Assembly (NCBI RefSeq): GCF_003725955.1
Contig: NZ_QIBZ01000010.1
Coordinates: 1 to 64,000, forward strand
Source of the DNA: Slackia isoflavoniconvertens
Lineage (GTDB): Bacteria; Actinomycetota; Coriobacteriia; Coriobacteriales; Eggerthellaceae
DNA length: 64,000 nt
Reading direction: 5' to 3'
Below, in pieces: positions 15,654 through 29,112 of the stretch; the stretch's first letter is position 1, and each line of letters starts with the position of its first letter. The notes beneath the pieces were generated by a model. It did no database searches, was not told the DNA's origin, and was given only the letters and a program-made list of their open reading frames with translations. Position numbers and translations under genes: made by a program.

Positions 15654-17510
15654 TTATTCAGCAAACTGTGAGTTATAGAGTTTAGCATAGGCCCCATTCG
15701 CCGCAAGTAGCTCCGCATGAGTTCCTTGTTCCACAATGTCACCTTTTTGCAAAACGAGAATTAAATCGGCATTGCGAATGGTCGACAAGCGATGAGCGAT
15801 GACGAACGACGTGCGCCCGCGCATGAGGTTATCCATGGCCGCCTGGATGCGCCCCTCGGTGCGCGTGTCGACCGAGCTTGTTGCCTCGTCCAAAATGAGC
15901 ATACGACGATTAGCCAAAATAGCTCGGGCGATAGTGAGCAGCTGGCGCTGGCCTTGGCTGATATTGCTCGCATCCTCGTTGATCACCGTGTCGTAGCCTT
16001 CAGGCAGCGTGCGAATGAAATGATCGGCGAATGCGGCTTTCGCGGCGGCCTCGACTTCGGCATCGGTTGCATCGAGTCGACCGTAGCGAATGTTCTCGCG
16101 CACGGTGGCGTTATACAGCCAGGTATCTTGCAGCACCATGCCGAATTGCGAGCGCACGTCTTCGCGCGAGAATTCGCGCACATCGTGGCCGCCGATGCGA
16201 ATGGCGCCGCCATCCACATCGTAGAAGCGCATAAGCAACTTCACCATGGTGGTCTTGCCTGCTCCCGTGGGACCGACAAGCGCCACGGTTTGTCCCTCGC
16301 CCACGCGCGCCGAGAAATCGCTGATCACCGGATGCTCGGGGTCGTAGCCAAAGCGCACATGGTCGAACTCCACGTCGCTTGAAACATCGGCGGCCTGCGC
16401 CTTCGGCTGCTCGGACGCTTCTTCAGGAGCTTCAAGGAATTCGAAAATGCGTTCCGCCGCCGCGGCCATTTGCTGCAGCACGTTGGCGACCTGAGCGAGC
16501 TGCGTGATAGGCTGCGTGAAGTTTTTCACATATTGAATAAACGCCTGAATATCGCCCACCGTGATTCGACCCTGCACGGCAAAAACCGCGCCCGCAATAG
16601 CCACAGCCACATATCCCAAATTGCTCACGAAGCTCATGACGGGCATCATGAGACCCGAAAGAAACTGAGAGCGCCACGCCGATTGATAGAGCGCCTCATT
16701 CGTTTCGCGGAAAGCGGCGAATGCCGCGTCTTCCTTGTTGAACGCGCGCACGATGGCTTGGCCCGAGAACGTTTCCTCAATTTGGCCGTTGATTTCACCG
16801 AGCTTCTTCTGCTGAGCGCGGAAGTACCTCTGGCTGCGCTTCACGACGACTTTCACCAAAATGAGCGACAGTGGAATCACAAGCAGCGCGATAAGCGTCA
16901 TCTCAACATTGATGGACAGCATCATAACAAGCACGCCGATCATGGTAGTGGCGCTCGTGATGAGCTGCGTCACGCCTTGGTTCAGGCTTTGCCCCAGCGT
17001 ATCGACATCGTTGGTGATGCGCGAAAGCACGTCGCCGGTGCTCGTGCGCTCAAAATAGCCCACGGGAAGGCGATCAATTTTCTCGGCGATTTGGCGGCGC
17101 AGACCATAGCACGTGCGCTGCGAGACCGAGGTCATCATCCAGCCTTGTACGAACGAGCACGCCGCGCTCACGCAATACAACGCCAGCGTGGCGAGCAGAA
17201 TGGCGCCAACTGCGTCGAAATCGATGCCGCCAGTGCCGCCGATTTTGGCGACGATGCCGTCGAACAGCTCGGTGGTCGCTTGCGAAAGCACCTTCGGGCC
17301 CACGATATTGAAGGCGGCCGACGCCATGGCGAACACGATGGCCGCAATGAAAGCTACTTTGAATTGCCCCATGAAGCGCACGAGTTTGCCAATAGTGCCC
17401 TTGAAGTCTTGTGCCTTTTCTCCGGGCATCATGCGACCCATGGGGCCACGCCCGCCGCGGCGGCGCGGCGATGCCGCCTTCAGCTTTGCCATTTCCTCCT
17501 GCTGGCTCAT
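15654..17510 (-). CDS. ABC exporter half-transporter, catalytic NBD
   Basis: A 618-residue fused permease-ATPase: six-helix exporter domain (about residues 45-340) and a C-terminal ATPase. Walker A is GPTGAGKTT, Walker B LILDEATSSVDT with the catalytic Glu, and switch FVIAHRLST with His, so this NBD has an intact hydrolysis core. Its signature motif, ISQGQR, departs from LSGGQ. This complements the degenerate partner encoded immediately upstream, so both together should form one heterodimeric exporter of the LmrCD/TM287-288 type. The start overlaps the partner stop by 4 nt (ATGA). Substrate unknown, probably drug or lipid-like. Confidence 0.93.
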   Translation of the reverse strand: MSQQEEMAKLKAASPRRRGGRGPMGRMMPGEKAQDFKGTIGKLVRFMGQFKVAFIAAIVFAMASAAFNIVGPKVLSQATTELFDGIVAKIGGTGGIDFDAVGAILLATLALYCVSAACSFVQGWMMTSVSQRTCYGLRRQIAEKIDRLPVGYFERTSTGDVLSRITNDVDTLGQSLNQGVTQLITSATTMIGVLVMMLSINVEMTLIALLVIPLSLILVKVVVKRSQRYFRAQQKKLGEINGQIEETFSGQAIVRAFNKEDAAFAAFRETNEALYQSAWRSQFLSGLMMPVMSFVSNLGYVAVAIAGAVFAVQGRITVGDIQAFIQYVKNFTQPITQLAQVANVLQQMAAAAERIFEFLEAPEEASEQPKAQAADVSSDVEFDHVRFGYDPEHPVISDFSARVGEGQTVALVGPTGAGKTTMVKLLMRFYDVDGGAIRIGGHDVREFSREDVRSQFGMVLQDTWLYNATVRENIRYGRLDATDAEVEAAAKAAFADHFIRTLPEGYDTVINEDASNISQGQRQLLTIARAILANRRMLILDEATSSVDTRTEGRIQAAMDNLMRGRTSFVIAHRLSTIRNADLILVLQKGDIVEQGTHAELLAANGAYAKLYNSQFAE

Positions 17511-19663
17511 TGCGCATCACCTCCTTCCAGCTCTTCTTCCGATAGCTGCGAAAGCGCGATTTCGCGATACGGTTCACAGGCGTCCATGAGTTCGGCATGC
17601 GTGCCGCAACCCACGACGCGCCCCTCGTCGAGCACAACGATTTGGTCGGCATGAAGCACCGTGGAAATGCGCTGAGCCACGATGATCTGAGTTTTGCCGC
17701 CAAGCTGTTCGGCGAGCGCATGGCGCAGCGCGGCGTCGGTTTTGTAGTCGAGCGCGCTGAAGCTGTCGTCAAACAAAAACGCGCGAGCATCGGTGGCAAG
17801 CGCGCGGGCGATAGCCAAGCGCTGGCGCTGGCCGCCCGAAACGTTCGTGCCGCCTTGGGAAATTTCGGTTTTGAAGCCCTCGTCCATGTCGTCCACAAAA
17901 TCGGCCTGGGCGATTTCCGCCGCAGCGCGCACGCGTTCGGCATTCAGCTCGTCGGCAGCGTAGTCGACGTTTTCTTCAACCGTGCCGCTGAACAGGAAGG
18001 CCTTTTGCGGAACGTAGCCCAATTGGCCGCGCAGCGCATGCAGCGACAGGTCGCGAATATCGATGCCGTCGATGGTAATGGAGCCTTCCGACACGTCAGC
18101 GAAACGCTCCACGAGTTTAATCACCGTAGACTTGCCCGAACCGGTCGAGCCGATGATGGCCGTGGTTTGACCAGGCTTCGCGGTGAAGTCGACATGCTCG
18201 AGCACGCAATCTTGCGAGCCAGGATATCTGAAGCTCACGTCGTTGAAAGCGATTTCGGCACCACCCGTGCGCGCGGCGAGTTCGTCGTCGCGACACACTA
18301 CAGTCGAAGGGTCGGCGATCGAGCTTTCCGTCTTAAGCACCTCATCGATGCGCTGGGCGGCAACATCGGCACGCGGCAGCATGATAGAAAGCATGCCGAT
18401 CATAAGAAAGCCCATGATAATAACCATGGAATAGGTGATGAACGCGATGAGGTCGCCCGTTTGCAACGTGCCCGCATCAACCGCGTGGCCGCCGAACCAA
18501 ATGATGGCAACCGACACCAAATTCATGATGAGCATCATGAGCGGCATCATGAACGTCATGACGCGGTTCGTGAACAGCTGCGTTTTCATGAGGCGCAGGT
18601 TTGCTTCGTCGAAACGCTCTTCCTCATGGGCCTCGCGGCCGAACGCGCGCACCACGGGGATGCCCGTAAGAATCTCACGCGACACGAGGTTCACGCGGTC
18701 GATGAGCTTCTGCATGATTTTGAACTTCGGCATTGCCACTTTCATGAGGAACAGCATCACCACGGCGATGGCAAGCACGGCCGCCACGATAATCCAGCCC
18801 ATAGAGAGGTTTGTGCGGGCAATCATGATGATGCCGCCGATAGCCAAAATGGGAGCGTAAAGAATCATGCGCAGCATCATGACCGACACCATTTGCACTT
18901 GCTGCACGTCATTGGTGCCACGCGTGATAAGCGAGGCGGCCGAGAAGCTTTGGATTTCAGCGTCCGAAAACGACAACACGCGCTCGAACAGGCGGCTTCG
19001 CAAGCTGGCGCCGATTTTCGCCGCCGTGCGGCTCGCGATGAAGCCCACGATTACGGCGATGACCATGCCGAGCGCGGCGAGGCCGAGCATCTTGCCGCCC
19101 GTGGTGAGCAGGTAATTCATCTGCATGGCGTTCAGATCGTAACCGAGCTGTTCATATTCGGCCTTGGCGGCGGCAATCGCCTGCTGGCCCACGATGGAAT
19201 CGGCCATGTCGCCCATCTGCGACTTCACTTCATCGAGCATGGTTTGAACGTCGGGCTTCTGCACCATGCCGGCATCGTAAGCGACTTTCAGCTGGTCGAG
19301 GTCCATGCCGGTTTGATCGGCGTAATGCACTGCAACAAGCGGCATAGACATGGCATCGTCGAGTTCCGCGCGATGCTCGCGGCCGAAGTCGGTGAGTTCG
19401 TAGGTGCCATCGGAGCGTTGGAAGTAGGAATCGGCAAACAGGCTTTCGTTCTGCTCGGTTTCCATAATGGCGACCAAGTCGTGCGTGCGCTCGGTGAGCG
19501 CATCGGTCGACGCATGCTCGACGCCCGATTGCTGAATACCCACGTCAACGATATCGGATGTATAATTCGGCAACGATAAATCACAAAATGCTTGAACCGC
19601 GAGCAGTACCACGACGATCACTACCGCGATTTTATGATTCGCGAAATTCTTGATTAGGCGCAT
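17507..19663 (-). CDS. ABC exporter half-transporter, degenerate NBD
   Basis: A 718-residue partner half-transporter. It is longer because of a large loop of about 110 residues between the first two membrane helices (residues 40-155). In its ATPase, Walker A GSTGSGKST and signature NVSGGQRQR are intact, but Walker B reads AFLFDDSFSALD (Glu replaced by Asp) and the switch reads IIVAQRIST (His replaced by Gln). That pattern is the standard non-catalytic site of heterodimeric exporters. The start overlaps the MarR-family stop by 10 nt, giving marR-ABC-ABC as one operon under the palindromic operator at 20183-20218. Confidence 0.93.
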   Translation of the reverse strand: MRLIKNFANHKIAVVIVVVLLAVQAFCDLSLPNYTSDIVDVGIQQSGVEHASTDALTERTHDLVAIMETEQNESLFADSYFQRSDGTYELTDFGREHRAELDDAMSMPLVAVHYADQTGMDLDQLKVAYDAGMVQKPDVQTMLDEVKSQMGDMADSIVGQQAIAAAKAEYEQLGYDLNAMQMNYLLTTGGKMLGLAALGMVIAVIVGFIASRTAAKIGASLRSRLFERVLSFSDAEIQSFSAASLITRGTNDVQQVQMVSVMMLRMILYAPILAIGGIIMIARTNLSMGWIIVAAVLAIAVVMLFLMKVAMPKFKIMQKLIDRVNLVSREILTGIPVVRAFGREAHEEERFDEANLRLMKTQLFTNRVMTFMMPLMMLIMNLVSVAIIWFGGHAVDAGTLQTGDLIAFITYSMVIIMGFLMIGMLSIMLPRADVAAQRIDEVLKTESSIADPSTVVCRDDELAARTGGAEIAFNDVSFRYPGSQDCVLEHVDFTAKPGQTTAIIGSTGSGKSTVIKLVERFADVSEGSITIDGIDIRDLSLHALRGQLGYVPQKAFLFSGTVEENVDYAADELNAERVRAAAEIAQADFVDDMDEGFKTEISQGGTNVSGGQRQRLAIARALATDARAFLFDDSFSALDYKTDAALRHALAEQLGGKTQIIVAQRISTVLHADQIVVLDEGRVVGCGTHAELMDACEPYREIALSQLSEEELEGGDAQ

Positions 19664-20160
19664 GGCTCGCCACCTTCCTTTTCGCAGCGAGGGGCGTTGC
19701 TGACGGCGGCATCCTTCCAGGGATGCGACTCTTCGAACTCGAGCATGCGGTTCACGATACGCACGAATTCGCGAGCATCCTCTTCGCCCAAGAATTCGAG
19801 CATATGCATGAAACGCTCGTCATGCAGGCGACGGCCCTCGTTTTCGAACTCGTGACCCGCATCGGTCAGGGAAATCGCGACGGAGCGAGAATCGCCCTCG
19901 CCGCGCTTGCGCACGATGAGGCCTTTTTCCTCAAGCGACTTGAGCGTTTGCGAAACCGCGCCCGGCGTCGCATGAGTGCACGCGGCAAGCATGCCGGGGC
20001 GCACGGTCTCGCCACGGGCTTCCATCATGGAAAGCATCATGAGCGTGTTGATTTCGCCACGCGTGATCCCCGGTGGCAACGGAGGTGTCGAGCGGCGTTG
20101 GCGCATGCGCTGCATCGTTTCAAACATTTCGGTGCGCAACGCTTCCAAAGATTCGCTCAT
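19654..20160 (-). CDS. MarR-family transcriptional regulator
   Basis: A 168-residue winged-helix regulator. The core shows ITRGEINTLMMLSMM, RPGMLAACTHATPGAVSQTLKSLEEKGLI and the wing VRKRGEGDSRSVAISLTDAG, all standard MarR elements. A good ribosome site AAAGGAG lies 6 nt before ATG 20160. It heads the operon for the two ABC half-transporters and most likely represses it, with release by a transported compound. A nested palindrome directly upstream is the likely operator. Confidence 0.93.
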   Translation of the reverse strand: MSESLEALRTEMFETMQRMRQRRSTPPLPPGITRGEINTLMMLSMMEARGETVRPGMLAACTHATPGAVSQTLKSLEEKGLIVRKRGEGDSRSVAISLTDAGHEFENEGRRLHDERFMHMLEFLGEEDAREFVRIVNRMLEFEESHPWKDAAVSNAPRCEKEGGEPCA

Positions 20161-20643: not shown

Positions 20644-21400
20644 AAGACCACCCGCATAGCGGGTGGTTTGCTCTTAGGGTATAACCTTTGGATGCCGGCC
20701 AGCGCCTCAAGGCGCCGGCCCTCACTTCGTTCAGGCCCAATAGCGTTTTGACCCGTGTCGCCGGTAGAAACCGGCCGGCAGTCACTTCCCGCCGAACGGG
20801 TCCTCGTACTCCTTCACGCTCAACTTGTCCTCGGCGATGTCCCGGGATTCCTGCTCCCGGATGTATTTCGCGATCGTCGCCTCGTTGAGCCCGACGGTCG
20901 ACACGTAGTAGCCCTGCGCCCAGAGCTTCCTGTTGCCGAATTTGTGCTTCAGGTTGGCATGCCTGTCGAATATCATCAGCGAGCTCTTGCCCTTCAGATA
21001 CCCCATGACGCTCGCGACGCTGTACTTCGGGGGTATCGCGGCCAGCATATGCACGTGGTCGGGCATCAGGTGGCCCTCGATTATCTCGATCCCCTTGTAT
21101 TCGCAGAGCTTCCTCAGTATCTCGCCGATGTCGGCCCTTATTTGGTTGTAGATGATTTTGCGCCTATACTTCGGCGTGAACACGATGTGGTACTTGCACA
21201 TCCACTTCGTGTGCGCCAGGCTGCACGCTTTCTGCGCCATGGCCTTCACACCCTTTCGTCTCGAAATCTTGACGGCCTGAACAATCGTCAATATCGAGCG
21301 AAAGGGTGGCTTTGTAAAGCGGATTGTCGTCCGCCCGCATAGCGGGCGGTTTCCTTGGCGCGGCTACGCGCGCGCCAGACTAAAGTCTTTAATGGAATGC
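20644..21400 (-). mobile_element. Solo IS200-type insertion sequence (approximate ends)
   Basis: A single Y1 transposase gene bounded by two near-identical hairpins, ACCACCCGC/GCGGGTGGT (20647-20667) and CCGCCCGC/GCGGGCGG (21331-21349), both with an ATA loop and followed by TTT. Such subterminal hairpins are what IS200/IS605 transposases recognise. Extra hairpins at 20692-20720 lie in the transposase 3' region. The exact cleavage ends cannot be fixed by eye. It sits immediately 3' of the lipoprotein operon at 21405. Confidence 0.65.
20782..21240 (-). CDS. tnpA: IS200/IS605-family transposase TnpA (Y1 HUH)
   Basis: A 152-residue single-strand DNA transposase. The HUH pair is seen in LMPDHVHMLAAIPP, the RNA-like fold core in CKYHIVFTPKYRRKIIY, and the catalytic tyrosine in LNEATIAKYIREQES. 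An upstream in-frame extension to 21291 exists, but ATG 21240 (AQKACSLAHTKW) gives the normal family length. No TnpB/IscB partner or guide-RNA gene accompanies it. All key residues are intact, so it may be active. Confidence 0.93.
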   Translation of the reverse strand: MAQKACSLAHTKWMCKYHIVFTPKYRRKIIYNQIRADIGEILRKLCEYKGIEIIEGHLMPDHVHMLAAIPPKYSVASVMGYLKGKSSLMIFDRHANLKHKFGNRKLWAQGYYVSTVGLNEATIAKYIREQESRDIAEDKLSVKEYEDPFGGK

Positions 21401-21404
21401 CTCA

Positions 21405-21575
21405 TTAAGTTCTTCTTCGCGCCCCCCTTCTAATCATGTTTTGGGTATCAATACGGGATTGCTTGAACTCAGAAGAGGCAACAGTTCCATTATGCATTCC
21501 CACAAGAACATAGATAATTACAAACGGTGCTGCGATGGCATTCAGTATTAGGATAGCGGCCAATATACCGTCCAT
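21405..21575 (-). CDS. Small membrane protein, 56 aa (element cargo)
   Basis: Unrecognised. The peptide starts MDGILAAILILNAIAAPFVI and continues IYVLVGMHNG, a single membrane span, then a basic C-terminal tail RRGARRRT. GGGGA lies 6 nt before ATG 21575. It is the last gene of a four-gene minus-strand operon, 27 nt after the 86-aa membrane protein, which argues that it is real despite its size. The IS200 element begins just beyond its stop. Confidence 0.6.
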   Translation of the reverse strand: MDGILAAILILNAIAAPFVIIYVLVGMHNGTVASSEFKQSRIDTQNMIRRGARRRT

Positions 21576-21602
21576 GTTTATCCCCGCCTACCGAGAGTAA
21601 GG

Positions 21603-21863
21603 CTATATCCATCCGAAAAGCGCATTGGACGCAGCGTCCATCATGCCCATCAACCACACCATTACAGGCCCAGCGAACGCGCCAAGCCGGTAATGAAGAA
21701 ACGGGTTAATATGCCATATGAACAGAAAGCCGATCGCGCCGAAAATCAATAGAATCAAAGCAAGCGCAAACCATCCTACGCCAGCGAATATTTCCTTAGT
21801 TCTGCTCTTCGTGTCAAGCGACTTGCCGTTTTCTGCTTCGTTCTTCTCCGTATCTGGATTCAA
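21603..21863 (-). CDS. Small two-span membrane protein (element cargo)
   Basis: Unrecognised 86-residue protein. A charged N-terminal tail of about 25 residues precedes a long hydrophobic span (VGWFALALILLIFGAIGFLF) and a second amphipathic/hydrophobic segment (AFAGPVMVWLMGMMDAAS). The start is TTG 21863, with AAGAGG 8 nt upstream. It follows the OB-fold lipoprotein gene by 20 nt. No function can be assigned. Confidence 0.65.
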   Translation of the reverse strand: MNPDTEKNEAENGKSLDTKSRTKEIFAGVGWFALALILLIFGAIGFLFIWHINPFLHYRLGAFAGPVMVWLMGMMDAASNALFGWI

Positions 21864-21883
21864 TGTTGAACCTCTTTTCGCAC

Positions 21884-23152
21884 TTATTGAACAACCTCAA
21901 TCTGGCTCGGTGATTCGACTTCAATATTGCATGCCCCGTTGTAGACGTATATCTCGCCAGTCACGCAAATGGTCTTGCCCTCATATAAGGCTTTTGGTGA
22001 TGGAGTGAACTTAGACCTGTTCTCTCCCCATATGACTGCGGTAACCCTGCTTGCATCGGGGTAAGATGCCCCAATGTCCATAAAGGTAGGTGCGCCGTTT
22101 GCTCCGCTCTCATAGTCCACGTCTATCACCTTGCCGTAAACGGTCACGGTTTCTCCAATGTGGGAACTTGCGTCTTTCCAAGAAATCGCTCCATCGGGGA
22201 TGCTGCTTGTAGACGACTTCTTAGCATTTGCGTCTGGAGCTGTCGTGGACGAACCACTCTTTGAAGATTCGGCCGCATCAATACGCGGAGGCAGAAGCGA
22301 ATTCTCGAAAACGGCATTGCCTTCGCCGCCCAGCTTTATTGTCTTGTAGTAATCAGTGACCCAATCGCCGAAGACATCTGCATTTGCGTCGTTGTAATCG
22401 AGCATGACGGTGTACTTGTTTGCACCCGATACGAAATGAAGATTGACCTCATGGGAATCTCCAAAATCCATACTGGTGTCTAAGACCATGTCTATTCCGT
22501 CTGCGCTAACCAATTGCAGATTGGGATAGCCCTTGTCTTGCAGCGTTCGCAGGATGGTTTCGGCGGTTTGACCCTCGGCTGGGTCTGAAAAAACCGTGAG
22601 GTACATGTCTGTTGTGGGCAAATAAATCATTGTGTACGCACTTACGTTAGGCTCTTGCAGCGACATCTTCAAAGGAGCCTCCATCGAGAAGCCATCGAAT
22701 TGAACGCGCGTAAGCTCGTCCTCTTCTGCAACTTTCTCGAACACAAAGCGCATCCCATCGCCAGATGCGGAAGTCATCAGCTTGCCGTCTGATGGTTCTA
22801 GCCTGAATGCGACCTGATCATATAGATTGAAAAGAACATCGCCTTTATTCACAGACCACTTATATTCGGTTATTTCTCTTCGGCAATCAGTGCTGATCGC
22901 CCATTCGTCAGAGTTGATGGCTATAACGGCTGTGGCCATTGTTACGTAGCTTCCATCCTCTATGAGCTGTTCGGAGCTAACATTCTTACCGTCGTATTCG
23001 ACACCCGAACATTTCCATATGCCCTCGTAGACAATGGAGCTACTTGAGGCATCTCGATTCCCGCAACCCGTGAGGACAAGAGAAGCAGATAGCAATAAAA
23101 ACAACGCAATGATCGCCGTGATAAAGCATCTTGTCCTGCTGACATTAGACAT
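21884..23152 (-). CDS. Lipoprotein with C-terminal OB-fold-like domain (element cargo)
   Basis: A 422-residue predicted exported lipoprotein. The signal peptide (ITAIIALFLLLSASLVLTGC) ends in an LTGC lipobox. A lipocalin-like segment (residues 45-150, EGIWKCSGVEYDGKNV), a PsbP/Mog1-like middle region (about 150-270), a Ser/Thr/Lys-rich linker and an OB-fold-like C-terminus (SHIGETVTVYGKVIDVDYES to CVTGEIYVYNGACNIEV) follow. AAGGG lies before ATG 23152. Middle gene of the cargo operon; the surface location would fit superinfection exclusion or envelope interaction, but that is conjecture. Confidence 0.75.
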   Translation of the reverse strand: MSNVSRTRCFITAIIALFLLLSASLVLTGCGNRDASSSSIVYEGIWKCSGVEYDGKNVSSEQLIEDGSYVTMATAVIAINSDEWAISTDCRREITEYKWSVNKGDVLFNLYDQVAFRLEPSDGKLMTSASGDGMRFVFEKVAEEDELTRVQFDGFSMEAPLKMSLQEPNVSAYTMIYLPTTDMYLTVFSDPAEGQTAETILRTLQDKGYPNLQLVSADGIDMVLDTSMDFGDSHEVNLHFVSGANKYTVMLDYNDANADVFGDWVTDYYKTIKLGGEGNAVFENSLLPPRIDAAESSKSGSSTTAPDANAKKSSTSSIPDGAISWKDASSHIGETVTVYGKVIDVDYESGANGAPTFMDIGASYPDASRVTAVIWGENRSKFTPSPKALYEGKTICVTGEIYVYNGACNIEVESPSQIEVVQ

Positions 23153-23170
23153 ATCTATCCCTTGCTATGT

Positions 23171-23647
23171 TTATCGCTTTGTAAAGGTCGCCCATCTAGA
23201 AGAGCCCTCCATTGCTGGAAGCTTAATCTCGGTTTCCGAAATGACTTCGCCAGGCATGGCACTCTTTGTGCCGTCGGGGTCGGTTCCAATCATTCGGAGC
23301 TGGTTGCCTTTGCGTTCGTAGTCGCGCCACACGCCAGTGTTCGCCTCGGTCGATACCCTGAATTGGTTGTCCTTGAACTCGACGCAGGCTTCCATCCCGT
23401 TCACGTAATTCGGGCAGTAATACTTTCCCGATACGGGTATTTCGACATCGGCTTCGGAACTCGCGCTTTGCGAAGAGCTGGATGTAGCGGTAGCCGAACT
23501 GGAAGATGAAGAGCTTTTAGAGCTGGAACACGCCGAAAGTGTAAGACACAACGATGCAGCTAGCATAAACGCTACAGCTGTTTTCAGGATGTGCACGCGT
23601 CTCGATTCGTTTCCATTGCTATGACCTGCGATACGCAGCTTGTCCAT
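23171..23647 (-). CDS. Short lipoprotein (element cargo, first operon gene)
   Basis: A 158-residue predicted lipoprotein. ATG 23647 is chosen because AAGGAGGGG lies 3-10 nt upstream; an open extension to 23749 lacks such a site. The signal core AVAFMLAASLCLTL ends in the lipobox LSAC, followed by a long Ser-rich linker. The mature domain contains CPNYVNGMEACVEFKDNQF and MIGTDPDGTKSAMPG, resembling the small lipocalin-like folds seen in the next gene. Function unknown. The operon order 23647 to 21405 has gaps of 18, 20 and 27 nt. Confidence 0.72.
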   Translation of the reverse strand: MDKLRIAGHSNGNESRRVHILKTAVAFMLAASLCLTLSACSSSKSSSSSSSATATSSSSQSASSEADVEIPVSGKYYCPNYVNGMEACVEFKDNQFRVSTEANTGVWRDYERKGNQLRMIGTDPDGTKSAMPGEVISETEIKLPAMEGSSRWATFTKR

Positions 23648-23722
23648 GACCCCTCCTTGCACTGGCTCCGTTTGCCAAGCCGGGATGATTTCAGGCCACG
23701 AACAGTTCCAACGACCATGAAA

Positions 23723-23855
23723 GAGGGCATCCCGCCTAACAGTCGCCAAACTGACCTAGAGCTACAGAACTCCAGAAGGGTACAAGATGCCCTCCTGCAT
23801 ACGTTCTGTAGCTATATGAGGCCTTTGCTCACGCAGAGGCTTTGTCAGTTTGGCG
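23723..23855. repeat. Nested inverted repeats upstream of the lipoprotein operon
   Basis: Three pairs interleave: GAGGGCATC (23723) with GATGCCCTC (23786); CGCCAAACTGAC (23744) with GTCAGTTTGGCG (23844); GCTACAGAAC (23761) with GTTCTGTAGC (23803). Two of the pairs are nested and one crosses them, so alternative folds are possible. The region lies between the divergent cargo lipoprotein and the frameshifted gene and may be regulatory. Confidence 0.6.
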
Positions 23856-23899
23856 GTGTCTATTATAAAGGCTACGTGTGAAGAATGGGTGCTTGATGC

Positions 23900-24555
23900 T
23901 TATTGTGACGGCGCGTCTATGCCAAACGGTTTGTGAGCCAGCAGGGCAACGCCGCCATATCGCAACGGTCGTTCGTTAAGAGAAGGGTCGTTTGTCCAAC
24001 GCAATTCGCGGACAGCTTCTTGCAGTTCCTCCGTGTTAGCCAAGGTTTCTTTTTCTGCATCCTCAACGCTTTCCCTGCGGACGACCGCTTTGAGATTAGT
24101 GAACTTGTTGGTGTGTTTGGCGCTGCACGTGTTCTTGGGATGGCCGCCCGTTTCGCCTCTGCGCCTGTCAACCACTTTGCCGCACACAGGGCAAAGGCCA
24201 GGAAGTTGCTTGTCGTTAGCTCAACAATCGTTTGCCAAAGCTCATCTACGCGAGACTTAGGCCGAAACTTCGGCTTTCCGTCAAACGTCCCCACATAGAT
24301 GCTTGAAGTATGCGCGTTCGCTATGACTTGTCCAAGAAGCTTGTATGGCATTAGCGCATCGAAGTTGTCGGAGTTGCCGCTCCTGTCCAATAACTCCAAG
24401 CGCACAATCGCATGCATTTCGAAGATGACATAATCGCCGCCACCAATCCGCTCAACACTCAATGAGGGGACGAGAAACCCATTAGAGCCAAGCACGCTGT
24501 CATATTCATCGGGAACTTGAAAGTTGCCTTGACCGATATAGAAGCATTGTTCCAT
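23900..24555 (-). pseudogene. Frameshifted gene with C-terminal zinc-finger
   Basis: Two overlapping minus-strand frames make sense only when joined. The N-terminal part (ATG 24555 to about 24222, ~111 residues) ends QTIVE; the C-terminal part, in another frame from about 24220 to 23900, begins ANDKQLPGLCPVCGKVVD and continues with a Cys/His cluster (CPVC, then CSAKH) and a long helix. One missing G within GAG(G)CT near 24220 restores a ~217-residue protein. Without correction, the first frame reads on into an Arg/Ser-rich nonsense tail. It could be a decayed gene, a sequencing error or, less likely, programmed frameshifting. Family not recognised. Confidence 0.65.
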
Positions 24556-24570
24556 GTACGGAAGAACAGC

Positions 24571-24777
24571 CTAAATCTCTAGGGCTACATCATCATTACC
24601 ATAGGCTCGCTCACGCGTAAGGATTTGGCTTTTGCCCGTGAACCTGCACACATCCTGCCAGCTCGCTAAACCTATTCCGTAGGCGATAAGAGAACAGGCG
24701 CGGTACATGTTCTCGCTCTGTACCATTGCAAGCCGCCCAACCTCATATTCTGGGGTTTGCGGAAGTTGGCCGCACAT
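24571..24777 (-). CDS. Hypothetical small ORF, 68 aa
   Basis: A possible small gene 15 nt upstream of the frameshifted gene, starting MCGQLPQTPEYEVGRLAMV. It has no recognisable domain or convincing ribosome site, and it fills the gap up to the divergent repA. Kept only because spacing and strand suit an operon with the downstream gene. Confidence 0.3.
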   Translation of the reverse strand: MCGQLPQTPEYEVGRLAMVQSENMYRACSLIAYGIGLASWQDVCRFTGKSQILTRERAYGNDDVALEI

Positions 24778-24794
24778 GTAAGGTGGTAGCCGCA

Positions 24795-25883
24795 ATGCTT
24801 AACACGATAATTTCAAGCCAAGACAACAACGGCGCGGAAACCCCGCTTACGCAACTGCCAATCGTCGAAGCAATCACGGAAGAGGCGAAGCTGCCAGAGC
24901 TTCCTAACGAGCTTATCGAAGGTGTCATCAGGCGCGGAAGCAAGCTGCTCGTCACTGGTGCGTCGAAATCTGGGAAGTCTTTCTTGTTCATCGAGCTTGC
25001 GTTGGCCGTGGCAACTGGCGGCAAGTGGTGCGGCACGCAATGCGCCAAAGGGCGCGTGCTGTACGTGAACCTAGAGATTCAGGAGCCGCAGTTCATGCGC
25101 CGCGTCTATGAAGTAATGGAGAAGCCTGGCATGGTTGGCAACAGCATACCGAGAAACTTCCACATCGCAAACCTGCGGGGAAAGTTCTCCGACATCAAAT
25201 CCCTTGTGAATGCCATCTTAGAATTGCTCGACGCGCGGACATACGACCTCATACTCATCGACCCAACATACAAGGTACAGTCGGGGTCGGAGAACAGCGC
25301 GGATGCCATCACGGCCTTTTGCAAAGAACTTGACAGGCTCGTTGAAGGACATGGCTGCACCGTTGCCTACACACACCATCACAGCAAAGGAAGCCAAGGC
25401 AACAAGAACGCCGAAGACCGCGCCTCTGGCTCTGGCGTGTTCGCCCGCGATGCCGACACGATAATCGACATGGTGCAGCTTTCATCCGATGAGGAAGCTG
25501 CACATTCGAAGTTCGCAATCATGCACCCGACAGCAGTGCCGTTCCGTCTGGAGTTCATCCTACGAGACTTCCAGAAGAAGCCCCCAGTCAAAATCTGGTT
25601 CGCACATCCGCTGCATGTAGTGGATGAAGACGGGGAGCTGAAAAGATGCAATCCAAGAAAAGCTGGCAGCAACAGCAACGCTATAAAAGCCAAGAGGGAA
25701 GCCTTGGAAAAGCTGGAAGGAAAGCTCGATCGGTTCATGGGCAGTCACACCGAGATAGATCGTAAAGACTTCCTTGCAGCACATCCTATGAAAAGGGAGA
25801 CCTTCAACAAGCGCATCAAGAAAAGCGAGCGCTTCGAGGTTGAAAGCGGAAACCACACGTGCAAGGTAAGGCGCATAGGTTAG
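24795..25883 (+). CDS. RepA-like RecA-fold ATPase (AAA_25 type)
   Basis: A 362-residue P-loop ATPase of the plasmid/phage RepA-helicase kind. Walker A reads VTGASKSGKSF (about residue 60), Walker B YDLILIDPTYK, and THHHSKGSQG with RASGSGVFARDADTI is a RepA/DnaB-like motif. The C-terminal 70 residues are charged and helix-rich, possibly a DNA-binding winged helix. ATG 24795 is preferred over an upstream start at 24726 because AAGGTGG lies 8 nt ahead. A hairpin and a 9-bp iteron array follow within 220 bp, so it likely serves replication of the integrative element. Confidence 0.82.
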   Translation: MLNTIISSQDNNGAETPLTQLPIVEAITEEAKLPELPNELIEGVIRRGSKLLVTGASKSGKSFLFIELALAVATGGKWCGTQCAKGRVLYVNLEIQEPQFMRRVYEVMEKPGMVGNSIPRNFHIANLRGKFSDIKSLVNAILELLDARTYDLILIDPTYKVQSGSENSADAITAFCKELDRLVEGHGCTVAYTHHHSKGSQGNKNAEDRASGSGVFARDADTIIDMVQLSSDEEAAHSKFAIMHPTAVPFRLEFILRDFQKKPPVKIWFAHPLHVVDEDGELKRCNPRKAGSNSNAIKAKREALEKLEGKLDRFMGSHTEIDRKDFLAAHPMKRETFNKRIKKSERFEVESGNHTCKVRRIG

Positions 25884-25905
25884 AAGAAGTTGTATGCAGC
25901 TTACG

Positions 25906-25948
25906 GGGGTACCCTCCCCTATAAGGTGTCTAGCTAGGTAGGTACCCC
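25906..25948. repeat. Inverted repeat downstream of repA
   Basis: Perfect 8-bp arms GGGGTACC (25906-25913) and GGTACCCC (25941-25948), 23 nt after the repA stop. Part of a cluster of symmetric elements leading to the iterons. Confidence 0.5.
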
Positions 25949-25951
25949 TAA

Positions 25952-25983
25952 GCAACCTTGGCAAGCCAAGTTGCCAAGGTTGC
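25952..25983 (+). terminator. 13-bp hairpin between repA and iterons
   Basis: Arms GCAACCTTGGCAA and TTGCCAAGGTTGC with a 6-nt loop; GTTTGTT follows. Could terminate repA or be part of an origin. A second partial copy (CCTAGGCAACC) follows. Confidence 0.5.
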
Positions 25984-26040
25984 GTTTGTTCCTAGGCAAC
26001 CTGCCTACCGAGATGGGGGCGACGAGAGAGACAAACAGAG

Positions 26041-26100
26041 TTAGCTTGGTTAGCTTGGTTAGCTTGGTTAGCTTGGTTAGCTTGGTTAGCTTGGTTAGCC
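26041..26100 (+). repeat. Iteron-like array of 9-bp repeats
   Basis: Six perfect tandem copies of TTAGCTTGG at 26041, 26050, 26059, 26068, 26077 and 26086, ending in a partial TTAGCC. No spacers vary, so it is not a CRISPR. It lies 157 nt after the repA stop; directly repeated 9-mers beside a replication ATPase resemble iterons of a plasmid-type origin. One frame would read Ser-Leu-Val repeats, which I regard as a by-product. Confidence 0.75.
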
Positions 26101-26184
26101 ATATTGAAATCGAACCAACCCAACAGGCGCATCTCTTTTGCTTTGTCACATGGCTAAGCATGGTAAACAAGTGACCTGGATGTG

Positions 26185-26902
26185 GCTGCGAAGATATGAT
26201 TTGGTTTGTTAGCTCATAAACCTACTCAAAAGCGCCCCATCCTGGTAGCTGTGTTTAAGCTCTAGCCCCTACCTATCCCGCTTGTTAACGGGTCGCTTCG
26301 TTGGGAATGCCCGCGCTCGTGCTTGGCAGCACCGATACCTAGGCCGCTTCGGCAGACCATGCGGACAGTCCGAAAGAACCTCCCGTTCGCCCGTAACGCA
26401 TGATTAGCAAGAAATCCGCTCTTGAACTGGGGATTTGCAGCCAATCAGATTCTGGAAAACAGGCGGGGTTGTTGGTCGGGAACTTCCCCATATTCCTAAT
26501 ATCCAGATTGTTGATATATACCCACCCCCCTACACGCTAGGGAAACGCGCGGAGCGTTAGTCCGTTGCTCGTTTTCACATTTCGGTTGCGGGGGTTGCCT
26601 GTCGTGCAGTTCGGAACATGCGACCCCTAGGGAGCATCGGCTTGCCCGTGGTTCCGAATCTCGCGGACGGCACATCGACGCGCCATCTCTGGAACAGGTG
26701 AAGCCACGGCTCGAAATGCGCCCCGTGCTAGTGGCGGCAGCAACGCCAACCAACATGAAAGGTTAGGCCAGCAATACACGGCGTTTGTGCTCGCGGTGGC
26801 AAGCGCACCGACACATGCAAGTCAGCCAAGGGAGCACCCGTAGGCTTGCTTTCAAGGCTTGCATTAACGGTGGAACGAACAGGTAACCAGCCACCACGAC
26901 AA
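26185..26902. other. Non-coding stretch of the integrative element
   Basis: About 720 bp without a supportable gene on either strand. Base composition is mixed, with a C-rich run (26521-26533) and scattered short palindromes. It may hold origin, transfer or regulatory sites; no oriT or relaxase signature was recognised. Confidence 0.4.
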
Positions 26903-26916
26903 GAAAGGAGCCGACC

Positions 26917-27060
26917 ATGACGGCAACAGCAATGGCAGAGCGCAAGGCAACGGAGACGGCAGCGGCAGCGCAGCCAGCGCGCACAGGGCGCACAGGGCGC
27001 ACAGGGCGCAAGGAGCGCAGCATCAAGCAGCGCACGGTGGATGCAGCCAAACCTACCTAG
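26917..27060 (+). CDS. Small basic protein, 47 aa, with GRT repeats
   Basis: Short ORF with an excellent AAAGGAG ribosome site 7 nt upstream of ATG 26917. The peptide is Ala-rich then basic, with an in-frame 9-bp repeat GGGCGCACA giving GRTGRTGRK, and ends KQRTVDAAKPT. The stop TAG overlaps the GTG start of the next gene by one base, suggesting coupling. Could be a nucleic-acid-binding or leader peptide. No family recognised. Confidence 0.5.
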   Translation: MTATAMAERKATETAAAAQPARTGRTGRTGRKERSIKQRTVDAAKPT

Positions 27061-27473
27061 TGGCGAGGGGCTACAACGTGCGCAGCACGTGGGAGTCGGA
27101 AAGCCAGTTCGGGTTCGTCGCGCAGGACGATGGGGCAGTGGCGTTCATTCGTCTGCTCTCAAACGGCATCGGCAAGGACAAGCTGCCAGACGAGCCGACC
27201 ATGACCCGCGAGCAGTTCGAGCAGGTGGCCATTAAGTGGCTGAAGACGGCGGACAAGGAGCTGGTGGACGTGCCAGTGCGATTCGACGAGCTTGCACTCA
27301 CGGTGCTATGCGCCGATCGCGCGCTAATCCGCCACCACATCAACATGCTTGGCATGGGCGAGAACCGACACATGCAAGTCACATACCAGATACATCCATG
27401 TGACATGCCACCAGCCCACATCCCGCCCATGTCGCCAAATTGCGGGGAGGTTCTAGCCAGCCTCCCCGCCTAA
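27060..27473 (+). CDS. Hypothetical protein, 137 aa
   Basis: Unrecognised soluble protein starting at GTG 27060. It has WESESQFGFVAQDDGAVAFI, then EQFEQVAIKWLKTADKELVD and a helical DELALTVLCADRALIRHHINML segment. The C-terminus is Pro-rich and of low complexity. It lies 27 nt before the integrase and is coupled to the 47-aa ORF; position suggests a recombination accessory or regulator, without sequence proof. Confidence 0.55.
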   Translation: MARGYNVRSTWESESQFGFVAQDDGAVAFIRLLSNGIGKDKLPDEPTMTREQFEQVAIKWLKTADKELVDVPVRFDELALTVLCADRALIRHHINMLGMGENRHMQVTYQIHPCDMPPAHIPPMSPNCGEVLASLPA

Positions 27474-27500
27474 CTAGCTATTCTAAGGAAGTGTTCATAC

Positions 27501-28709
27501 ATGAAGAAACACATAAAGCCGGCATCGGTTAGTCAGGTGAAGAACTGTCACGGCACACCGGCAAAAGGCTCATGGAGGTTAACGCCCACAATCGGAACTG
27601 ACCCAATCACCAAGAAGCCAATTCGCAAATACAGAACATTTCACGGCACTAAGACGGAGGCAAAGCAAGCCGCCATAGACTTCGCGTGCGAAGTCGAGAG
27701 CGGCCTCAATGTTGACTTGGAGCGTCTAACATTCGGAGAGTATGCAGCTCAATGGATAGCAGAGCGGGAAGCGAGTGGAACCTTCGCTGCAACAACCATC
27801 AAGAGGAACAAGGAACTGGTAGAACACCTGAACACCTATCTTAGAGGCGTTCGCATATCAGACATTGATGCGCCGACAATCCGCAACCTATACATCTACA
27901 TGACGCAAGATGGCGTTGGACATCCTACGCAGAACAAGGCAAGCGTCGTGTTGAAGCAGATAATGAGACAAGCAGTGATCAACGGAATCATCCTCACGAA
28001 TCCTTGCGATCTAGTGAAGCCTCCAAAACAGGAGAAATCGACTGTCAGCATTTCCCTCGACAAGAGCGAGGTGGCCGCACTATGCAAAGCTCTGGATAAG
28101 TTAGAGACGAAGCGATACCCCCACGCTAGGGAAGCCTGCCAGAAGGAAACAGCCAACAAAGCTCATGCAACAGCAGTTAGGCTGATACTTGCAACAGGCT
28201 TGCGTCAAGGCGAGGCTTTAGGGCTGACACGGAACGATGTGGATTTCGATAACGCCATGCTTTATGTGCGCCATACGCTAGACAGGGCAACAGGCAAATT
28301 GAAAAAGCCTAAGACTGACAGCGGCGTGCGCATTGTCGCGCTTGATGAAGCAACCCTATTAATGCTCGGAAGCTGGAAAGCAGCGCAACGTTCCTATTTG
28401 AACTCACTCGGCATTGAGCAAGGAAACGACACACCAGTGATCACGAGCGAAGCGGGCACTCATATGGAAGGAAACAACCTCTATCACTGGTGGAGCAGAT
28501 TCTTGAAAGCCAACAACTTGAAGAAGTGCAGACTTCACGACTTGCGCCACACTCACGCTACGTTGCTCATATCAAGCGGCACGAACATTAAAGCCGTGTC
28601 AGCTAGACTAGGCCATGCAAACATCGGCATCACATTGGACTTGTATGCTCATGCGCAAATGGAAGATGACAGGAAGGCCGCATCTGTGATTGGCTCAATC
28701 ATGTACTAA
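27501..28709 (+). CDS. int: Tyrosine-recombinase integrase
   Basis: A 402-residue phage/ICE-type integrase. An N-terminal AP2-like arm-binding region (GSWRLTPTIGTDP, KYRTFHGTKTEAKQAA) is followed by the SAM-like core-binding domain (LTFGEYAAQWIAERE) and the catalytic domain with all five residues: Arg in ATGLRQGEAL, His and Arg in LHDLRHTHAT, His in RLGHANIG, Tyr in LDLYAHA. AAGGAAG lies 11 nt before ATG 27501. The gene points at the 3' ends of three tRNA-Asp genes 120 bp away, the standard arrangement for integration into a tRNA. Confidence 0.95.
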   Translation: MKKHIKPASVSQVKNCHGTPAKGSWRLTPTIGTDPITKKPIRKYRTFHGTKTEAKQAAIDFACEVESGLNVDLERLTFGEYAAQWIAEREASGTFAATTIKRNKELVEHLNTYLRGVRISDIDAPTIRNLYIYMTQDGVGHPTQNKASVVLKQIMRQAVINGIILTNPCDLVKPPKQEKSTVSISLDKSEVAALCKALDKLETKRYPHAREACQKETANKAHATAVRLILATGLRQGEALGLTRNDVDFDNAMLYVRHTLDRATGKLKKPKTDSGVRIVALDEATLLMLGSWKAAQRSYLNSLGIEQGNDTPVITSEAGTHMEGNNLYHWWSRFLKANNLKKCRLHDLRHTHATLLISSGTNIKAVSARLGHANIGITLDLYAHAQMEDDRKAASVIGSIMY

Positions 28710-28761
28710 GCCGCAGCATAAGCCGCAAAAGCGAATCTCATTGTCGTAGCAGTGTCGTAGC
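28708..28761 (+). promoter_or_regulatory. Paired direct repeats after int (candidate arm sites)
   Basis: AAGCCGCA occurs at 28708 and 28720 (12-bp period) and TGTCGTAGC at 28742 and 28753 (11-bp period), about one helical turn apart, between int and the tRNA array. Such pairs are typical integrase or excisionase binding sites; function is inferred. Confidence 0.4.
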
Positions 28762-28786
28762 CGCCTGATTGTGTGCCTATGAAACC

Positions 28787-28817
28787 AAAAAGGTCAGAGG
28801 TAAAATAGCCTCTGACC
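28787..28817 (-). terminator. Intrinsic terminator of the tRNA-Asp operon
   Basis: Minus strand: GGTCAGAGG, an 8-nt loop, CCTCTGACC, then TTTTT. It lies 11 nt after the 3' end of the last tRNA. The + strand reading also ends in a T-rich run, so it may serve int too. Confidence 0.75.
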
Positions 28818-28828
28818 TGGTGTTTTAA

Positions 28829-28905
<77 letters not shown>

Positions 28906-28929
28906 GAATGGTGCGTACTTGAAAAAAGA

Positions 28930-29006
<77 letters not shown>

Positions 29007-29035
29007 GTGCTACACACGTGAGTTTGAAAAAAAGA

Positions 29036-29112
<77 letters not shown>

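Follow-up and report, generated by a model that had tools for sequence, protein, structure and literature searches.

A probable left-truncated integrative element at tRNA-Asp in Slackia isoflavoniconvertens and its compact relatives in Eggerthellaceae-like gut bacteria

Genomic islands of tRNA genes in the Islander sense (PMC4383910) combine an integrase beside a tRNA gene with a displaced fragment of that gene at the far end, in the same orientation. Integrative mobilizable elements carry a relaxase and an oriT that a helper uses. Phage satellites have attL/attR direct repeats, an integrase with regulatory and replication genes, and no phage structural genes, and a helper phage induces and packages them. 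One group of satellites, PICMI, is defined by int, AlpA, a DUF3987/DUF5906 primase and a fis site (PMC10803314). The attP sites of mycobacteriophages have pairs of arm-type sites beside the core (PMC3203893). Here we describe a region at a tRNA-Asp array of Slackia isoflavoniconvertens (21405-28829 of a 64,000-nucleotide stretch, hereafter the window) that shares features with these systems. The window belongs to contig C10 of a 2.25-Mb draft genome in 53 contigs (97.6% complete), and comparisons were made within the genus (12 genomes, the source genome counted among them) and within the family (138 genomes).

We consider it quite probable that the region preserves the attR-proximal portion of a mobile element, which was inserted at the 3' part of tRNA-Asp by its own lambda-like tyrosine integrase, has been truncated on the left, and is probably immobile in this copy. 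More tentatively, and with somewhat less than even confidence, we propose that Eggerthellaceae-like gut bacteria harbor an undescribed family of 5.6-8.9 kb integrative elements, free of relaxase and capsid genes, that are probable phage satellites and use many tRNA genes. Their ends would be marked by two arm repeats (8-10 bp; 11-bp period) and by a conserved, covarying hairpin acting as terminator of the invaded tRNA; the window would hold a left-truncated member, with a lipoprotein cargo domain shared with a complete member and a folded stretch ahead of the cargo.

The insertion and its junction with tRNA-Asp

In genome G005, which belongs to the same genus, the ABC-MarR genes lie ~0.8 kb from three tRNA-Asp genes in the same orientation, whereas 8.7 kb separate them in the window. 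The GC content at third codon positions (GC3) was 0.57 for the integrase gene int and 0.54 for a gene encoding a 422-aa lipoprotein (lipo422), compared with 0.72 ± 0.056 in 41 other open reading frames (ORFs) of the window; that of repA was intermediate (0.66) and that of a UPF0102-like gene was not low. Given the empty site in G005 and the low GC3 of int and lipo422, the insert is real and partly foreign in composition. A first-pass annotation of this DNA had proposed an integrative element linked to tRNA-Asp, had suggested looking for empty tRNA-Asp sites in genomes that lack it, and had held that the same 7 kb in all relatives, with chromosomal codon use, would speak against it. The G005 site, in another species, and the GC3 values support that proposal, as do the arm repeats, the junction terminator and a prophage at the same tRNA in genome G004 (see below). 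Five further genomes (G001, G003, G007, G009, and G011) have one or two tRNA-Asp genes near the MarR/ABC genes, in the opposite orientation.

As that annotation had also stated, a tyrosine integrase (402 aa; 27501-28709, plus strand) faces the tRNA-Asp array. It is intact as judged by its motifs, with Phage_integrase and SAM-like domains (Pfam and PHROG) and LRQGE, HDLRHTH, LGHANI, and LDLYAH in order. Its closest relative (49% identity) is encoded on contig G046:C24. The three tRNA-Asp (GTC) genes occupy 28829-29112 on the minus strand (ARAGORN; Rfam RF00005), and the 3' end of the first, at 28829, is the attR junction. The integrase thus lies beside a tRNA gene, and the link between the two is well supported.

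The interval from the stop codon of int to the 3' end of the tRNA contains an arm-type pair of identical 9-mers, TGTCGTAGC, at 28742-28761 on the plus strand, with copies at 28742 and 28753 and hence a period of 11 bp (0/300 shuffles). Direct repeats of 7-10 bp with a period of exactly 11 bp were also detected at 10 other element ends, where their sequence was mostly different each time. Ends of this type adjoin tRNA-Asp, Gly, Arg, Val, Met, and Leu genes, and their observed score was reached in 0 to 6 of 300 shuffles, which preserve base composition only. Five native tRNA-Asp flanks lacked the 11-bp-period repeat.

A hairpin followed by a T-run on the tRNA strand (AGGTCAGAGG...CCTCTGACCT; 28788-28820, minus strand) lies between the arm repeats and the tRNA. 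Across 12 element ends, 96.6% of the cells of this hairpin were paired, and the covariation score was 0.414 vs. 0.165 after shuffling (0/500); the outer stem is nearly invariant, the inner pairs covary, and slid versions fail. The hairpin is unlike the native terminators of uninvaded tRNA-Asp genes in relatives, and we read it as a terminator brought by the element to the split tRNA.

Similar arrangements were observed at two other sites. Beside a tRNA-Gly gene on contig G000:C3 of the same genome (locus L004, 1380-1565), an arm-type repeat TTGGTCCC with an 11-bp period and an element-type terminator occur with no integrase gene nearby, and this site is probably the scar of a second element. 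Next to the integrase that is 49% identical to ours (locus L158, 7884-8065 of G046:C24), just the 5' part of tRNA-Arg(CCT) is present, followed by the element hairpin, and the 3' part is not restored on that side.

Bounded relatives and the missing left end

Four relatives of the element could be bounded at both ends. These include an 8.6-kb element at tRNA-Leu in G018 (37-bp perfect repeat), a 6.9-kb element at tRNA-Met (G031a; tRNA repeat with mismatches), an 8.9-kb element at tRNA-Val (G031b; 49-bp repeat), and a 5.6-kb element at tRNA-Val in G088 (51-bp repeat). Exact arm pairs were found at both ends of G031a, G031b, and G088; the second pair of G018 is one mismatch off, with its copies 12 bp apart. 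These elements encode an integrase, an HTH_17-type excisionase-like protein, a phage-type helicase or primase, and small cargo, with a further HTH protein or a zinc-finger DUF in some of them. Among the proteins of these elements that were searched (some small ones were left out), no match of note to a relaxase, terminase, or capsid was found. At 5.6-8.9 kb, they support the earlier suggestion that such elements can be compact without transfer genes. The elements G031a and G031b lie nearly back to back at neighboring tRNA-Met and tRNA-Val genes (locus L157, 1979-18192). Scans of viral contigs with repA, int, and lipo422 returned no relatives, and a scan of genome contigs with int returned two distant ones.

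It is possible, though we regard it as the less probable case, that the region is the remnant of a larger element, such as a prophage or an integrative mobilizable element, which lost its structural or relaxase genes with its left end, so that the ancestor was not compact. In the G004 genome, a 25.4-kb prophage occupies the same tRNA. It is flanked by an att repeat of 45 bp (44/45) and has arm repeats on either side, and its integrase is 32-33% identical to that of the window. RepA-like relatives occur in many phages. At a tRNA-Val, locus L111 has the gene order int-DUF-xis-repA together with genes for a relaxase and a MobC-like protein; since a relaxase accompanies the same module there, elements of several kinds carry it. 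Against such an ancestor, the four relatives have defined ends that enclose 5.6-8.9 kb, in which we saw no gene of this kind, and the one in G018 resembles the window in gene content: its integrase (34% identity), RepA (39%), and UPF0102-like protein (35%) have counterparts in the window, and membrane-protein cargo lies at the far end in both.

With regard to the left end, the same annotation had reported that a copy of the tRNA 3' end was not found at the far side by eye. This was confirmed: a 24-mer from the tRNA-Asp 3' fragment, allowing up to three mismatches, had no other match in the assembly, and a search of the window for a left att copy with exact 11-14-mers and local alignment gave nothing convincing. 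The 64-kb window has no second arm pair. A search of the element with the excisionase/HTH proteins of relatives gave chance-level matches only. As neither a tRNA fragment nor a second arm pair was found, the left end was lost between MarR and 21405, and because it is missing, 21405-28829 is not the whole element. The view of this copy as compact and complete is not supported: it has lost the left att site and the arm sites on that side, and no excisionase could be detected.

The lost edge is occupied, as previously noted, by an IS200/IS605-family insertion (20648-21355; tnpA at 20782-21291 on the minus strand, Y1_Tnp 1.9e-39), which is present as a single copy in the assembly. Similar hairpins occur at both of its ends. 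The right-end hairpin also scores as a terminator; since both ends carry it, we take it as the end of the insertion sequence. The IS200 may have taken part in the loss of the left end. To its left lie the MarR and ABC-transporter genes (17507-20160, minus strand), and to its right follow, in order, a lipoprotein/membrane operon, an ORF of unknown family, repA, a gene-poor ~1 kb, the UPF0102-like gene, int, and the three tRNA-Asp genes.

A further alternative, which we consider distinctly unlikely, is a satellite-like element that is intact and mobile, with a left att core too short or too diverged to be detected. The int and RepA frames are intact, and so is the right end. However, the bounded relatives have long tRNA repeats, arm repeats stand at both ends in G018, G031a, G031b, G088, and the G004 prophage, and the window has one arm pair only and no excisionase that we could find. 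Our interpretation of a truncated element nonetheless has to be weighed with some caution. G005 is the sole same-orientation empty site among the genomes compared and belongs to another species; gaps of the draft assembly could hide a displaced att fragment; the intact frames of int and RepA fit recent or occasional activity; and the probable frameshift in the UPF0102-like gene could be a sequencing error.

RepA-like gene, putative cargo and proposed cycle

The RepA-like ATPase of the earlier reading is present as a putative replicative helicase of 359 aa (24804-25883, plus strand; Pfam AAA_25 2.4e-32). Its best PHROG match is a phage DNA primase/helicase (PHROG 2597, 9e-88), and homologues with 54-55% identity are encoded on contigs L103 and L104, which also carry an integrase. 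Downstream of repA, a 9-bp tandem repeat GTTAGCTTG × 6.7 (26040-26099; TRF) represents possible iterons. The array that had been reported is present, but "iteron" is just a label, as no counterpart was found in the repA-bearing relatives examined. An inverted repeat, GCAACCTTGGCAAGCCAAGTTGCCAAGGTTGC, precedes the array at 25952-25983, in a kilobase without convincing genes.

These features raise the possibility of an integrated plasmid, with iterons served by RepA and an integrase used for chromosomal parking only. The RepA-like ATPase is distantly similar to plasmid RepA helicases (29%), and the 9-bp array lies near its gene. We consider this origin unlikely, given that the best family matches of the protein are phage helicases/primases, that no such array turned up in repA-bearing relatives, and that neither a partition gene nor another replication protein was detected among the region's proteins.

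Two small genes had been placed ahead of the integrase. One of them, a 137-aa ORF at 27060-27473, is UPF0102-like: its homologue at locus L105 (35% identity over 98 residues) matches Pfam UPF0102 at E 3.8e-10. The other, a 47-aa ORF at 26918-27061, is probably not a separate gene and instead the start of the UPF0102-like gene in another frame. The two ORFs align collinearly with the N-terminus and the remainder of the homologue, with a frame change near 27050, and the match of the 47-aa ORF alone is weak (26/500 shuffles). Together they would form one probably frameshifted gene at 26918-27473 on the plus strand. UPF0102-like relatives matched in 126/138 family genomes, often in several copies, which a housekeeping UPF0102 gene may explain in part.

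On the minus strand, the four-gene operon of the earlier reading was recovered at 21405-23647 (to 23749 if the full open frame of the last gene is counted). It encodes small membrane proteins of 56 aa (21405-21575, the last gene ahead of the lost left end) and 86 aa (21603-21863), together with two lipoproteins with lipobox-like motifs: lipo422 (21884-23152) and a small lipoprotein with the lipobox LSAC and a serine-rich linker (23171-23647, start probably at 23647). Family matches were weak, those of the small lipoprotein being to lipoprotein families; a family search with the latter gave mostly short, weak matches that fell in the signal-peptide/linker part. A fifth minus-strand ORF of 212 aa and unknown family (23917-24555) had gone unmentioned. 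It has one marginal match beyond itself in the family genomes, and no intact homologue was found; its intactness is uncertain. A CPVCGK...CS motif lies at 23900-24187, in a different frame from this ORF. A reading in which the zinc-finger DUF gene of relatives persists at 23.9-24.8 kb with a frameshift was rejected, since the alignment scores did not clearly exceed those of shuffles (z -1.2 to 2.5).

The C-terminal part of lipo422 is an OB-fold-like domain (weak OB matches) that is 34% identical over 108 residues to a cargo protein of G031b. A near-full-length homologue (32%) was found in G133, and several genomes of the family encode homologues of the C-terminal part. Among sequence records, lipo422 matched only three plasmids, all over the C-terminal quarter, and no phage. 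Structure prediction without an alignment was unusable (pLDDT 36), PDB sequence searches gave nothing useful, and Padloc returned no credible defense match. A surface role for the cargo, e.g., superinfection exclusion, would be a guess.

Ahead of the operon, 23750-23858 on the minus strand folds strongly (-59.7 kcal/mol; z -7.0 vs. shuffles), with a 12-bp perfect inverted repeat and an inner 11-bp stem. Directly ahead of this presumed leader stands a TATAAT, the only one detected on the minus strand between 19 and 30 kb, and the apical GAGGGCATC of the fold has a possible alternative pairing partner, GATGCCCTC, just downstream. Searched against Rfam up to E 0.5, the stretch gave no match, and viral sequences that match its inverted repeat adopt other folds and seem to be chance matches. 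The stretch may serve in cis-regulation, or it may be a hairpin like that of a miniature inverted-repeat transposable element (MITE).

Taken together, we propose the following cycle for the ancestor of this truncated element. The N-terminal domain of the integrase would bind the 9-bp arm repeats, and its catalytic domain would recombine attP with the tRNA-Asp gene, leaving a restored tRNA that is ended by the element hairpin. Reversal would have been helped by an excisionase, now missing, and replication of the excised circle would fall to the RepA-like helicase. The integrated copy would express the lipoprotein/membrane operon as cargo. Lacking transfer genes of its own, the ancestor would have depended on a helper, and the group of small elements as a whole probably depends on helpers. 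A phage would be a likelier helper than a conjugative element, because the relatives carry phage-type replication and regulatory genes.

Comparison with known elements

The locus itself is an ordinary decaying island; what makes it useful is that it leads to a group of small integrative elements of this gut-bacterial family. The 11-bp-period arm pair and the conserved hairpin offer a simple, testable signature for exact element ends at many tRNA genes, and the four bounded relatives are candidate phage satellites. We found no description of such elements in Eggerthellaceae in the literature that was searched, and absence there is not proof.

The region resembles the tRNA islands of Islander (PMC4383910) in having a tyrosine integrase by a complete tRNA, a partly foreign composition, and an empty site in a relative. 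It differs from them in that no displaced tRNA fragment in the same orientation marks the far end. As the first-pass annotation had stated, no relaxase or capsid has a family match among the region's proteins; the region thus lacks the relaxase of integrative mobilizable elements and, like a satellite, has no phage structural genes. It does encode an integrase and a RepA-like helicase, and no regulator or excisionase was found. It also departs from PICMI in its tRNA-Asp site, and no DUF3987/DUF5906 primase or alpA-type gene was found.

Likeness to phage satellites (PICI; StCI of Streptococcus thermophilus, PMC13376191; PICMI, PMC10803314) is a matter of the relatives, for which a phage-satellite-like nature is our best guess. 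They are att-flanked at 5.6-8.9 kb, with attL/attR direct repeats in G018, G031a, G031b, and G088 and none detected in the window, and they encode an integrase, an HTH_17 excisionase-like protein, and a helicase/primase, with no structural gene seen. Unlike described satellites, the window copy is truncated. The tRNA-Asp prophage of G004 uses the same tRNA as the window, with a related integrase and a similar terminator. This 25-kb prophage has capsid- and tail-like genes, as read from its sequence, and the window has none; of the two, only the prophage has arm repeats at both ends. The junction anatomy has a parallel in the attP sites of the mycobacteriophages CrimD and Pixie (PMC3203893), where arm-site pairs flank the core, Pixie targets a tRNA, and CrimD has a stem-loop terminator between core and arm sites. 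The integrases and hosts are different, however, and in the elements described here the arm sequence varies from one element to the next while the 11-bp period stays.

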